Source: Kordiimonas pumila
GTDB lineage: Bacteria > Pseudomonadota > Alphaproteobacteria > Sphingomonadales > Kordiimonadaceae
DNA: 64,000 bases
Assembly: GCF_015240255.1 (NCBI RefSeq)
Contig: NZ_CP061205.1
Coordinates: forward strand, 806,001-870,000
Reading direction: 5' to 3'
Part shown: piece after piece, positions 11,204 to 14,090 of the stretch
Layout: the number at the start of each line of letters is the position of its first letter
Position numbering within the stretch: position 1 is the stretch's first letter
Program-made: the position numbers and the translations under genes
Notes under the pieces: model-generated
What the model was told of the DNA's origin: nothing
Database searches by the model: none
Seen by the model: only the letters and a program-made list of their open reading frames with translations

Positions 11204-12220
11204 TTAGCATGATAATTGATATTTTTTTATGAGATGCCTTAACTGGTCATATCCAAGGCCCATGTTTTTTGCTGCGAGCCGTTTGTTATACCGGGTGGTT
11301 TTGAGCGCATGGTCTAAAAGGCGGCGCTCCAGAGCTTCCACTTCTGCGCGGTAATCAAAAGGCACCGTTGGCAGTAAAGCTTCGGTGTGTGAAGCCTGAT
11401 CAGTAGAAACGGTGGCGGAAAGGTTTGTGGGTGCACTGTTTTTGGCTGCAGGGCGAAAGGGGCTGTCAAAGGGGTCAAAGATAATATTATTAATGGGCTC
11501 TTCGCCGTCCCAGGCTTGATAGATTGCCCGTTCCACAACATTTTTTAGTTCCCGAATGTTGCCGGGCCAAGCATAATTTTCCATGGCCTCCATTGCGGTA
11601 TTTGTAAAACCCGGGAAGTGTAACCACTCCAGTTCACTGGCCATTGCCGCACCAAAGTGGTTTGCGAGCACAGGGATATCTTCAGGGCGTTCCCTGAGGG
11701 GTGGAACGGTGATGACATCAAAGGCAAGCCGGTCAAGCAGGTCGTGCCGAAATTCGCCGCTGTCGGCCGCGGAGGGTAGGTCAATATTGGTTGCAGCAAC
11801 AACGCGGACATTCACCTGGATAGTTTCTGTGCCGCCAACCCTTTCAAATTCACCATATTCAATAACACGTAAAAGCTTTTCCTGTGCTGCCATACTCATT
11901 GTGCCAATTTCATCGAGAAATAGCGTGCCCTGATCTGCGGCTTCAAAACGGCCCGCCCTCTGCCCTCGCGCGCCAGTAAAGGCGCCCTGTTCATACCCAA
12001 ACAATTCGCTTTCCAGTAGGGTGGTAGTAAGAGCAGCACAGTTTAACTTTTGATAGGTGTTTTCCCAGCGATTAGACAGAAAGTGTAGGCGTGCTGCGAT
12101 CATTTCCTTGCCAGTGCCACGCTCACCAATCACAAGCATCGGGCGGTCCAAAGGCGCAGCGCGGCTTACTTGGTCAATCATGTCTAGAAACGTTGGTGAT
12201 GATCCTATAATTTGGTCCAT
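11204..12220 (-). CDS. pspF: PspF: sigma-54-dependent activator of the phage-shock operon
   Basis: A 338-residue enhancer-binding protein without an N-terminal receiver domain, as in PspF. The AAA+ domain has Walker A GERGTGKE, the sigma-54-contacting loop GAFTGA, Walker B LFLDEI and the arginine-finger region NVRVVAATN. A C-terminal Fis-type helix-turn-helix includes RLAAKNMGLGYDQLRHLIKKY. ATG 12220 is chosen because it begins the family N-terminus (MDQIIGSSPTF); the frame extends 33 codons upstream but that stretch is hydrophobic, AT-rich and unlike the family. It is divergent from the psp operon, which it should activate with sigma-54; PspA normally inhibits it. Confidence 0.93.
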   Translation of the reverse strand: MDQIIGSSPTFLDMIDQVSRAAPLDRPMLVIGERGTGKEMIAARLHFLSNRWENTYQKLNCAALTTTLLESELFGYEQGAFTGARGQRAGRFEAADQGTLFLDEIGTMSMAAQEKLLRVIEYGEFERVGGTETIQVNVRVVAATNIDLPSAADSGEFRHDLLDRLAFDVITVPPLRERPEDIPVLANHFGAAMASELEWLHFPGFTNTAMEAMENYAWPGNIRELKNVVERAIYQAWDGEEPINNIIFDPFDSPFRPAAKNSAPTNLSATVSTDQASHTEALLPTVPFDYRAEVEALERRLLDHALKTTRYNKRLAAKNMGLGYDQLRHLIKKYQLSC

Positions 12221-12341: not shown

Positions 12342-12357
12342 TGGCACGGCACATGCA
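12342..12357 (+). promoter_or_regulatory. Sigma-54 promoter of the psp operon
   Basis: TGGCACGGCACATGCA matches the -24/-12 consensus (TGGCACG-N4-TTGCA) at all but one base, with GG at 12343-12344 and GC at 12355-12356, exactly 12 bases apart. It lies 70 bases before the first psp start codon and next to pspF, as expected for PspF control. Upstream activator sites should lie in the AT-rich 12221-12340 interval but I cannot point to them. Confidence 0.88.
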
Positions 12358-12426
12358 ATTATATGTGGGTCAGCACAAAACGACTGACAAAACGACAGCA
12401 AAAATAAGAACCGAAGGAATACGAAA

Positions 12427-12591
12427 ATGACGATCCAGTTACAGCAATCAGCTTTTGAAATAAGAGGTACCAATACCCGCTCAGTGGAAAGCCTGATCTT
12501 TGGTGGGGTCCCTGATGCGCTTGTTAAAAGGCCAGTCAGTGACAGTCTGCGCCGCTTACGCCGCCAGTCACGTCGTCGTCGGGCCCTTTAG
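12427..12591 (+). CDS. Arginine-rich small protein, first gene of the psp operon
   Basis: A 54-residue frame beginning MTIQLQQSAFEIRG and ending in an arginine cluster (SLRRLRRQSRRRRAL). It starts 70 bases after the sigma-54 element. Its ribosome-binding region AAGGAATAC plus AAAATG is identical to those of pspA (12741) and pspB (13475), which argues strongly for real translation. It is not PspB, PspC, PspD or PspE and I do not recognise a family. The tail, with nine arginines in the last 14 residues, could bind RNA, acidic lipid or a partner. It is separated from pspA by about 160 bases containing hairpins. Confidence 0.62.
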   Translation: MTIQLQQSAFEIRGTNTRSVESLIFGGVPDALVKRPVSDSLRRLRRQSRRRRAL

Positions 12592-12602
12592 GTTCAACTG
12601 AC

Positions 12603-12629
12603 GGCCCGGTTCACCTATGTGACCGGGCC
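12603..12629 (+). other. GC-rich hairpin between the small gene and pspA
   Basis: GGCCCGGT(T)CAC pairs with GTGACCGGGCC (11 bp with one bulged T, loop CTAT). No T-run follows, so it may be an mRNA processing or stability element that sets different levels of the first gene and pspA. A second long-range pair CTGACGC (12634-12640) / GCGTCAG (12671-12677) follows. The function is inferred. Confidence 0.5.
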
Positions 12630-12752
12630 TCATCTGACGCTCATCAGTGTCACCACAAGAAGTGAAGATGGCGTCAGGTACGATAAGTATAGTCCTTAAA
12701 AAGTGGCATAAGCCCGAGGACGAAGCGAGGATAATTAAGAAAGGAATACAAA

Positions 12753-13454
12753 ATGGGTGTTTTCTCCCGTCTAACAGACATTATAAATTCAAACATCAAT
12801 GCTATCTTGGATAGGGCTGAAGACCCTGAAAAAATCATTCGAATGGTTATTCAGGAAATGGAAGACACTCTTGTTGAGGTGCGCTCAACTGCGGCTAAAT
12901 CCATTGCGGACCAAAAAGACTTGGAGCGCCGCCTGTCAAAGATCGTTAAAGCCCAGTCTGACTGGGAAGCAAAAGCAGAGCTGGCTATTTCTAAAGGCCG
13001 CGATGATCTTGCAAAAGGCGCGCTTATAGAGAAATCAAAAGTTGCCGAAATGGCGGCTCAGTTGCAGGAAGAACTCTATCTACTGGCTGAAGCTCTGAAA
13101 CGGAGTGAAGAAGATGTCATCAAGCTTGATGCTAAGCTTCGCGAGGCTCGTGCCAAAAAGGTAGTCATGCAAGCACGCCACAAAACCGCCTCTGCGCAGG
13201 TTAGAGTTAAAAGAAACCTGTATGACAACCGCATTCAGGATGCTTTCGACAGGTTTGATAAAGTAGACTCGCGCCTTGACCGTATGGAAGCAGAAGCAGA
13301 GGTTTACGACCTTGGCAGAGGCCAAACGCTTGCCGAGGAAATTGTTGGTCTTGAAGCTGGCGAAGAAATAGAAAAAGAACTGGCGGCTTTGAAAGCAAAA
13401 AATTCAGGTGCAGGCAAGCCAGAGGCTGTAAAGAAAAAAGCCGGGTCTAAGTAA
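12753..13454 (+). CDS. pspA: PspA, phage-shock membrane-stress effector
   Basis: A 233-residue PspA/IM30 protein of usual length. The N-terminal amphipathic helix (MGVFSRLTDIINSNINAILD) and the EDPEKIIRMVIQEMEDTL motif are diagnostic; long coiled-coil helices follow to about residue 190, and the tail is lysine-rich. PspA binds stressed inner membrane as an ESCRT-III-like polymer and restrains PspF in unstressed cells. The ribosome-binding site is AAGGAATAC. It is followed 32 bases later by pspB. Confidence 0.95.
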   Translation: MGVFSRLTDIINSNINAILDRAEDPEKIIRMVIQEMEDTLVEVRSTAAKSIADQKDLERRLSKIVKAQSDWEAKAELAISKGRDDLAKGALIEKSKVAEMAAQLQEELYLLAEALKRSEEDVIKLDAKLREARAKKVVMQARHKTASAQVRVKRNLYDNRIQDAFDRFDKVDSRLDRMEAEAEVYDLGRGQTLAEEIVGLEAGEEIEKELAALKAKNSGAGKPEAVKKKAGSK

Positions 13455-13486: not shown

Positions 13487-13711
13487 ATGGAAGCACTAGT
13501 GCCTATGGGCATACTCTTTGTGATCCTGCCCTGGATCCTGTTTCACTATATTACAAAGTGGAAAGAGATGAAGGGCTTCACACCAGAGGATGAAGCAACC
13601 CTTACGGATCTAAGAAAGTCGGCTGAACGGCTAGAAGATCGCCTTCGTACGGTGGAGCGCATTCTTGATAGCGAAGTGCCTGATTGGAGGAGCCGTCATC
13701 ATGACCTTTAA
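13487..13711 (+). CDS. pspB: PspB, phage-shock membrane sensor subunit
   Basis: A 74-residue protein with one N-terminal transmembrane helix (about residues 4-23), then a basic/acidic cytoplasmic part with the leucine-zipper-like stretch LRKSAERLEDRLRTVERILD, as in PspB. With PspC it senses membrane stress and relieves PspA inhibition of PspF. Its ribosome-binding site shares AAGGAATAC with pspA. Its 3' end overlaps the pspC start by 11 bases, indicating translational coupling. Confidence 0.9.
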   Translation: MEALVPMGILFVILPWILFHYITKWKEMKGFTPEDEATLTDLRKSAERLEDRLRTVERILDSEVPDWRSRHHDL

Positions 13712-14090
13712 AAAAAGCCCAACACGTCTGTATAAAAACCCTGAACGCGCTAAAATTATGGGTGTTTGTGCTGGTTTAGCCGACTATCTGGATATGAATG
13801 TCACCCTTGTGAGGGTTTTGGTAGTGATCGGCGCTTTTATGACCGGTATCTTCATGTTTATCATTGGATATATAATTTTGGGGATGGTGTTAGAGAGCAA
13901 GCCGCTTGATTTATATGCAGATGAGCAAGACGAGCAGTTTTGGAAGCAAACACGTAACGCCCCAGACTATACCGCGGCAGAACTGCGGAAAAGGTTTCGG
14001 GATATAGAACGCAGAACAGCCGACATGGAAGCCTATGTCACGAGCAAGAAGTTTCGGCTTGAACGCGAATTGAAAGCCTTGGAAGAATAA
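13701..14090 (+). CDS. pspC: PspC-domain phage-shock membrane protein
   Basis: A 129-residue protein with the PspC domain at about residues 6-65 (RLYKNPERAKIMGVCAGLADYL, then a transmembrane helix with VVIGAFMTGIFMFIIGYIILG). A cytoplasmic helical tail follows with RKRFRDIERRTADMEAYV. The start at ATG 13701 is chosen because GGAGG lies at 13686-13690 inside pspB. It acts with PspB as the membrane partner of PspA. It is the last recognised gene of the operon. Confidence 0.92.
   Translation: MTFKKSPTRLYKNPERAKIMGVCAGLADYLDMNVTLVRVLVVIGAFMTGIFMFIIGYIILGMVLESKPLDLYADEQDEQFWKQTRNAPDYTAAELRKRFRDIERRTADMEAYVTSKKFRLERELKALEE

Follow-up and report, generated by a model that had tools for sequence, protein, structure and literature searches.

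The phage shock protein (Psp) response is a much-studied envelope-stress system. In the DNA analysed here, a stretch of 64 kb called the window (C1:806001-870000 of genome G000, 4.04 Mb), the psp operon begins with a small open reading frame. Is this frame a gene, and what could its product do? The window PspA is nearest to Kordiimonas among named records, with a best segment 82% identical to K. laminariae. The elements of the locus are listed below.

11204..12220, minus strand: pspF, divergent activator (TIGR02974, 489.6 bits, cut-off 443.55)
12342..12356, plus strand: sigma-54 -24/-12 promoter element TGGCACGGCACATGC (pattern match)
12414..12422, plus strand: ribosome-binding sequence AAGGAATAC of the small gene (identical copies at 12741 for pspA and 13474 for pspB)
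12427..12591, plus strand: small gene, 54 aa, C-terminal RRLRRQSRRRR (open reading frame, same-slot relatives, selection in relatives)
12603..12629, plus strand: GC-rich hairpin with no U-run behind it (fold z -3.64 for 12588-12650)
12711..12734, plus strand: predicted sRNA pairing site immediately ahead of the ribosome-binding sequence of pspA (duplex -36.0 kcal/mol)
12753..13454, plus strand: pspA (TIGR02977, 277.3 bits, cut-off 242.95)
13487..13711, plus strand: pspB (TIGR02976, 73.2 bits, cut-off 51.7)
13701..14090, plus strand: pspC (TIGR02978, 133.7 bits, cut-off 104)

PspF, PspA, PspB and PspC each exceed their own NCBIfam cut-off. A sequence-only reading had placed a 54-codon frame between the PspF/sigma-54 promoter and pspA, and both the frame, which opens with ATG, and its psp neighbours were verified. 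Lying behind the promoter, ahead of pspA and near pspF, the small gene has the position of an operon component. The same reading had it share one exact ribosome-binding sequence with pspA and pspB; indeed, AAGGAATAC occurs exactly three times in the 64 kb (both strands), each time before one of these three genes. The nine arginines reported for the last 14 residues have to be corrected to eight (LRRLRRQSRRRRAL), and the whole protein contains 11. The promoter and ribosome-site sequences suggest that the small gene would be induced in the manner of psp genes and translated.

Sequence similarity alone gave no relative at a psp locus. A direct search of 98 genomes with the window protein gave weak matches only and no psp-linked relative; the best match outside G000 (E 5.2e-4, G003 C6:494252) lies far from the pspA of that genome (C6:977553). 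Likewise, a class-wide profile search of 385 genomes yielded 19 weak matches outside G000, none of them (0/19) with pspA within the fetched stretches of about 1.5 kb on each side. Since similarity uncovered no psp-linked relative, we looked for relatives by position, in the gap between pspF and pspA.

We read 167 psp loci, which correspond to 121 distinct leaders. A sigma-54 -24/-12 element was present in 115 of these, and the six leaders without a promoter match were set aside. The 115 comprise 35 short (33–101 nt) and 80 long (at least 175 nt) leaders. The called frame of a leader is the longest one that starts with ATG, reaches 30 codons and has a ribosome-site-like sequence; none was called in the short leaders (0/35). 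SD-preceded ATG frames of at least 30 codons occur in 72 of the 80 long leaders, against 12.6 expected from shuffles, and frames of at least 45 codons in 68 (6.1 expected). Genomes of genus g42 (e.g. G103, G111, G119) gave two PspA matches each rather than one.

Five families of the window's order (f1, f2, f3, f6 and f7, taken by family label) form a group of 46 distinct leaders, 42 of which carry a frame in the psp slot. An arginine-rich tail (RRxRRxxRxRR) ends 33 of these frames: 32 were called by the rule, and L195, equally arginine-rich although the hydropathy rule called it TM, was counted as the 33rd. The other nine frames lack the tail; eight have another ending (L007, L011, L021, L024, L116, L119, L202, L209), and that of L023 has a ribosome site outside the list used. 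Four leaders have no frame (L015, L017, L019, L025). No tailed frame was called in the 69 leaders outside the group (0/69).

To estimate selection, all 15 pairs of relatives above 50% identity were compared, 12 of them at 50–80%; as the pairs share lineages, they are not fully independent. The small-gene family evolves as a protein: dN/dS in the 12 pairs was 0.06–0.31. Their pS was 0.43–0.72 in the small gene versus 0.52–0.80 in pspA, while nonsynonymous change (0.12–0.30 versus 0.02–0.17) was far faster than in pspA. Two of the three closer pairs gave dN/dS of 0.13 and 0.30 on few changes, and the third, L003/L109, differs by a single change. Synonymous change in two of these three closest pairs was lower in the small gene than in pspA (0.07 versus 0.32 and 0.00 versus 0.20), a sign that the RNA, too, may be constrained. 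In seven ungapped pairs, differences on codon positions 1, 2 and 3 numbered 84/76/188 (p 2e-15), and the other two reading frames of the same pairs showed no such pattern. The lowest dN/dS, 0.06, belongs to the tail-less pair L116/L119; together with the nine tail-less frames among 42, this means that the arginine tail does not explain the function in full. The result named beforehand as speaking against a gene, frameshifts or much nonsynonymous change among closely related species, was sought in the relatives and not found. No relative exceeds 50% identity to the window copy, so that the selection test concerns the family and not the window lineage.

Could the window frame nevertheless be an accident of a long leader, or a frame in decay? 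Taken alone, it is only mildly unlikely by chance: 3.65% of 2000 dinucleotide shuffles of the window leader produce an ATG frame of 54 codons or more behind an SD sequence. The absence of a close relative of the window copy and the loss of frame or tail in some relatives point the same way. The frame stands above chance because frames recur across psp leaders and the relatives are under purifying selection: position, length, ribosome site and arginine tail all return in five families, and the dN/dS and codon-position tests in relatives argue against decay. We therefore regard a chance frame as very improbable. Gene status is supported at the family level. We read 12427-12591 as protein-coding, almost certainly a true member of the psp operon, and as the gene with which the PspF/sigma-54 psp operon opens in Kordiimonas-type bacteria.

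No Pfam, NCBIfam or PHROG family matched the window protein at E up to 1, and the family profile found only a weak best match among solved structures (E 0.57). Pfam likewise returned no families for L016, L020, L022, L129, L092 and L012, and for L009 only Terminase_4, below cut-off. A Psp-partner survey from 2024 (PMC11237479) shows no such gene in its available part. Within these searches, the description of the gene as undescribed holds. Literature joining Kordiimonas and phage shock was not found, and a search on small frames upstream of pspA showed no such gene by title among the matches listed.

An alignment of 25 selected tailed members shows four invariant arginines, which belong to a motif much like RRxRRxxRxRR, and variable sequence otherwise. 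AlphaFold2 predicts a C-terminal helix (residues 39–53) for the window protein, with pLDDT block means of 88 and 82 over residues 41–54; the mean is 61.9, with low values outside this helix. For the relative L009, it predicts three helices at low confidence (mean pLDDT 69.2). In a number of relatives, mainly of the order's other families, the N-terminus may resemble the first PspA helix in sequence profile, whereas that of the window copy does not. Against a PspA N-terminal profile, seven of 40 members, which are not independent, score above all 341 background N-termini (L023, L028, L078 and L082 from f2, L092 from f7, L129 from f6 and L022 from f1; L078 and L082 have the same N-terminus), and 16 of the 40 non-independent members are at or below the 5% level. 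The window N-terminus has a value of 0.31, i.e. 31% of background N-termini score as well. That the small gene arose by duplication of the pspA start is not supported, as DNA identity of the first codons exceeded codon-shuffled nulls only mildly and in only 3/11 loci (p 0.019–0.033, including the window; the other eight were not above the null). An amphipathic N-terminus is likewise not supported as a family trait (mean z only 0.66), and the window N-terminus is not amphipathic beyond shuffles (z -0.5).

Other alphaproteobacteria fill the same slot differently. Among their 34 long leaders, 26 carry a called TM frame, i.e. one with a predicted hydrophobic helix (17-residue hydropathy over 1.4), and no tailed frame was called (0/34). 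Five were called other (L162, L172, L175, L177, L179), of which L175, L177 and L179 end in a hydrophobic stretch just below the TM threshold. Three had no called frame (L090, L163, L210), although L163 does have a frame with a hydrophobic end. In L164, an uncalled alternative frame has six basic residues (R or K) among its final 15. Slot frames of L161, L164–L166, L169, L182, L186, L187 and others end in a predicted hydrophobic helix, e.g. ESWLFFAAGLVLGGIVM, and the slot proteins of L165 and L166 had no Pfam family match. In family f5 (L083, L085, L093, L095, L098, L125), the slot frames are about 50–60 aa long with an N-terminal hydrophobic stretch and endings such as VEIA or VELA. These hydrophobic slot frames have the position of the small gene, between sigma-54 promoter and pspA, and mostly a similar size; they differ in having no arginine tail, and by eye they bear no sequence relation to it and look like several separate groups. 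They hint that the slot serves membrane-directed accessories.

The gene for the accessory protein PspD lies downstream in the psp operon. PspD and other accessory Psp proteins are also small psp-operon products; unlike PspD, however, the small gene comes first in the operon, and NCBIfam yields no match for its product up to an E of 1. Another parallel is DUF1127/YjiS (PF06568), whose members are short (about 50 aa), arginine-rich and stress-linked like the small gene. According to the available part of PMC11707872, the 54-aa arginine-rich YjiS of Salmonella is called inner-membrane-associated and enriched PspA in co-immunoprecipitation, its infection phenotype was independent of PspA, and the small, arginine-rich CcaF1 of Rhodobacter has RNA binding associated with its arginines. 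PF06568 nevertheless did not match the window protein or three further members at E up to 1, and DUF1127 proteins have a DIGL-like end after the arginine segment, whereas the aligned small-gene members end within or just after the arginine run. The leader L172 of another alphaproteobacterium has a DUF1127-like frame of 213 nt in the psp slot (PF06568 E 0.012, below cut-off), which ends about 160 nt before pspA.

The leaders of the five-family group also share an RNA-level feature, a motif of roughly GCCYGRGYnACGACAGCGAGGA. When 20 chosen genomes were searched by pattern, many turned out to have a near-perfect copy outside psp. On the opposite strand, this copy reads as the 3' part of a terminator-ended RNA, a candidate sRNA. 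Its position in the window genome is as follows.

G000 C1:3741180-3741262 (locus L223, about 1428-1545), plus strand: candidate sRNA near oxyR, outside the window (conservation, covariation, terminator)

Fifteen sRNA sequences, picked by a pattern covering part of the core, were aligned (A7), and they display an invariant 19-nt core ATCCTCGCTGTCGTGACTC between a covarying stem and a terminator stem. The covarying stem has changes on both sides in 9/9 pairs, and the terminator stem has none. In the whole structure, 94.9% of cells can pair, compared with 31–54% in slid controls, and 38 cells are changed on both sides versus 11.9 in shuffles (0/500 reach 38). The number of pairs with two-sided change (reached by 42/500 shuffles) and the number of pair types (64/500) are not exceptional. 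The copy in G000 has a fold z of -5.77.

A model of the sRNA (R1) scored at least 60 bits in 44 of 147 genomes of the order, 29 of them outside the 15 training genomes. The matches are spread over f1 (28/29), f2 (8/8), f6 (6/7) and f7 (2/2). The remaining f1 genome, G002, has a 35-bit match that starts at base 4 of its contig. With the stricter filters of the order and class searches, which can lose weak matches, nothing was detected in f3 (0/1 genome), the other 100 order genomes gave no match over 32 bits, and G000 alone of the 385 class genomes passed 40 bits. The 19-nt core is exact in all 30 loci fetched by the R1 search, 20 of which come from genomes outside training. Four of the five families are thus predicted to encode a covarying, terminator-ended sRNA.

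The E. coli sRNA OxyS is encoded beside oxyR. Here, 25 of 35 sRNA loci have a relative of OxyR, AhpC or AhpD no more than about 1.5 kb away, and two of the 35 loci end within 0.8 kb downstream; the OxyR and AhpC assignments are best matches below curated cut-offs, and AhpD was over the subfamily cut-off in two of three. On the upstream side, 27/35 loci have a relative of one protein that we take to be TadC-like. Sub-threshold covariance matches over the whole model were obtained with SorY (RF02651; 27.9–35.6 bits, gathering 111) and SorX (RF02784; at most 32.8 bits, gathering 46.6), each in six of the nine loci searched. By their Rfam names these are oxidative-stress sRNAs; such matches would fit an sRNA of that kind, yet they prove nothing.

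Does the candidate sRNA target psp? Its seed is predicted to pair with the psp leader of the same genome in 15/15 genomes (energies between -28.9 and -48.3 kcal/mol, z between -3.1 and -9.7); in three of these genomes, one or more of 200 shuffles pair as well as the real leader, and in two more one shuffle comes within 1 kcal/mol. The window site has a z of -5.7 against 200 shuffled leaders, and the segment starting at 12691, in the pspA leader, pairs best of all 4264 segments in the window. We compared leader regions with 19 control windows in pspA across 34 genomes with both sRNA and leader (G059, without leader, was skipped). The 60 nt before pspA outperformed all 19 controls in 29/34 genomes, the stretch between small gene and pspA did so in 14/20, and at least one of three leader regions did so in 33/34. 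A further site in the 60 nt upstream of the small gene was rejected (better than all 19 controls in only 4/30 leaders); GACAGC is seen about 30 nt upstream of the small-gene start in many leaders. As the pairing site lies mostly between small gene and pspA, pairing could act on pspA alone. A model in which pairing frees or hides the pspA ribosome site found no direction (opened in 3/33, closed in 5/33) and was dropped.

The window psp leader is strongly structured (fold z -4.25); its single Rfam match was sub-threshold and was given no weight. Hairpins like that at 12603-12629 are visible by eye in other leaders of the group, and in L006, L008 and L010 the hairpin after the small-gene stop appears to carry the sRNA site in its loop. 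Elsewhere, L240 has an exact copy of the target motif shortly upstream of a 47-codon frame and L241 one in a stretch with a second similar copy; both are possible further targets. Control of psp at the RNA level has a precedent: the available part of PMC11882849 reports a CsrA binding peak upstream of the pspABC mRNA in a Pseudoalteromonas. CsrA, too, is an RNA-level regulator upstream of pspABC, but it is a protein with antagonist sRNAs of its own, whereas base pairing is predicted here. The available part of a Zymomonas sRNA paper had no psp content, and neither the small-gene family nor the sRNA-psp link was found in the literature searched.

What, then, might the small protein do? The best explanation as a whole is a psp-operon gene for a basic protein that assists PspA at the inner membrane, to which we would give a little less than an even chance. 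The small gene would be induced together with pspABC, and its short basic product would bind anionic surfaces through the C-terminal arginine helix; from such binding we propose that it acts as a PspA accessory at the inner membrane, much as YjiS may. The PspA/membrane role in itself, which we infer from position, basic tail, the hydrophobic same-slot proteins elsewhere and the analogy to YjiS, is a tentative proposal that may well prove wrong.

The main rival is an RNA-binding regulator, in which the arginine helix would sit on RNA, perhaps the psp leader or its sRNA. We presume that RRxRRxxRxRR resembles arginine-rich RNA-binding motifs. The structured leader with its predicted sRNA sites would offer a ligand, CcaF1 is a precedent in the available part of PMC11707872, and the arginine-tail family, leader motif and sRNA occur in nearly the same families. 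However, common descent alone may account for this shared distribution, and the overlap is imperfect: the four frame-less leaders belong to genomes that keep both sRNA and motif, while f3 (one genome, L029) has the frame and no detected sRNA. The YjiS pulldown, as far as the available part of PMC11707872 goes, also came without evidence of associated transcripts. We consider RNA binding rather doubtful, though a serious contender. Alternatively, translation of the frame could itself control pspA as a leader peptide, via arginine supply, ribosome pausing or the post-stop hairpin. Its first position in the operon, the arginine run at its end, the hairpin that starts 12 nt after the stop and, for two of the three closest pairs, the scarcity of synonymous change would fit. 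Yet a leader peptide should show no selection on the protein, and nonsynonymous change is suppressed in relatives, with purifying selection in the 12 more distant pairs. Moreover, 8/11 arginine codons are CGC or CGT, nine members keep the frame without the tail, the distance from stop to pspA varies from roughly 35 to 240 nt in relatives, and the hairpin has no U-run behind it, making this reading improbable. We judge it equally improbable that the protein co-regulates PspF or PspA, as a small feedback factor by which the operon is reset once stress has passed. The gene sits between pspF and pspA, and PspA itself restrains PspF (PMC6003685, available part); against this, no interface or structural support emerged, and all 35 short leaders do without a frame.

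Beside the small gene, the sRNA-psp link is a second result, perhaps the more consequential one; both remain predictions from sequence. Combined, they could make psp a hub under dual control, in which a PspF-driven leader carries an arginine-tailed gene and an sRNA-targeted RNA before pspA, and the small protein forms a new class of Psp effectors; we think this combination unlikely, if conceivable. The RNA between small gene and pspA would then be the main target of the sRNA adjacent to oxyR/ahpCD, and peroxide status would set pspA translation apart from that of the small protein on the same transcript. The new effector might bind PspA, the membrane or the psp leader RNA.

In many of the alphaproteobacterial psp loci that we read, the first gene appears to encode a small protein, and different lineages fill the slot with different ones. 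If these slot proteins work with PspA, they would give direct access to the tuning of PspA at membranes. If true, pairing of an oxyR-linked sRNA with psp leaders would join peroxide and membrane stress by RNA.
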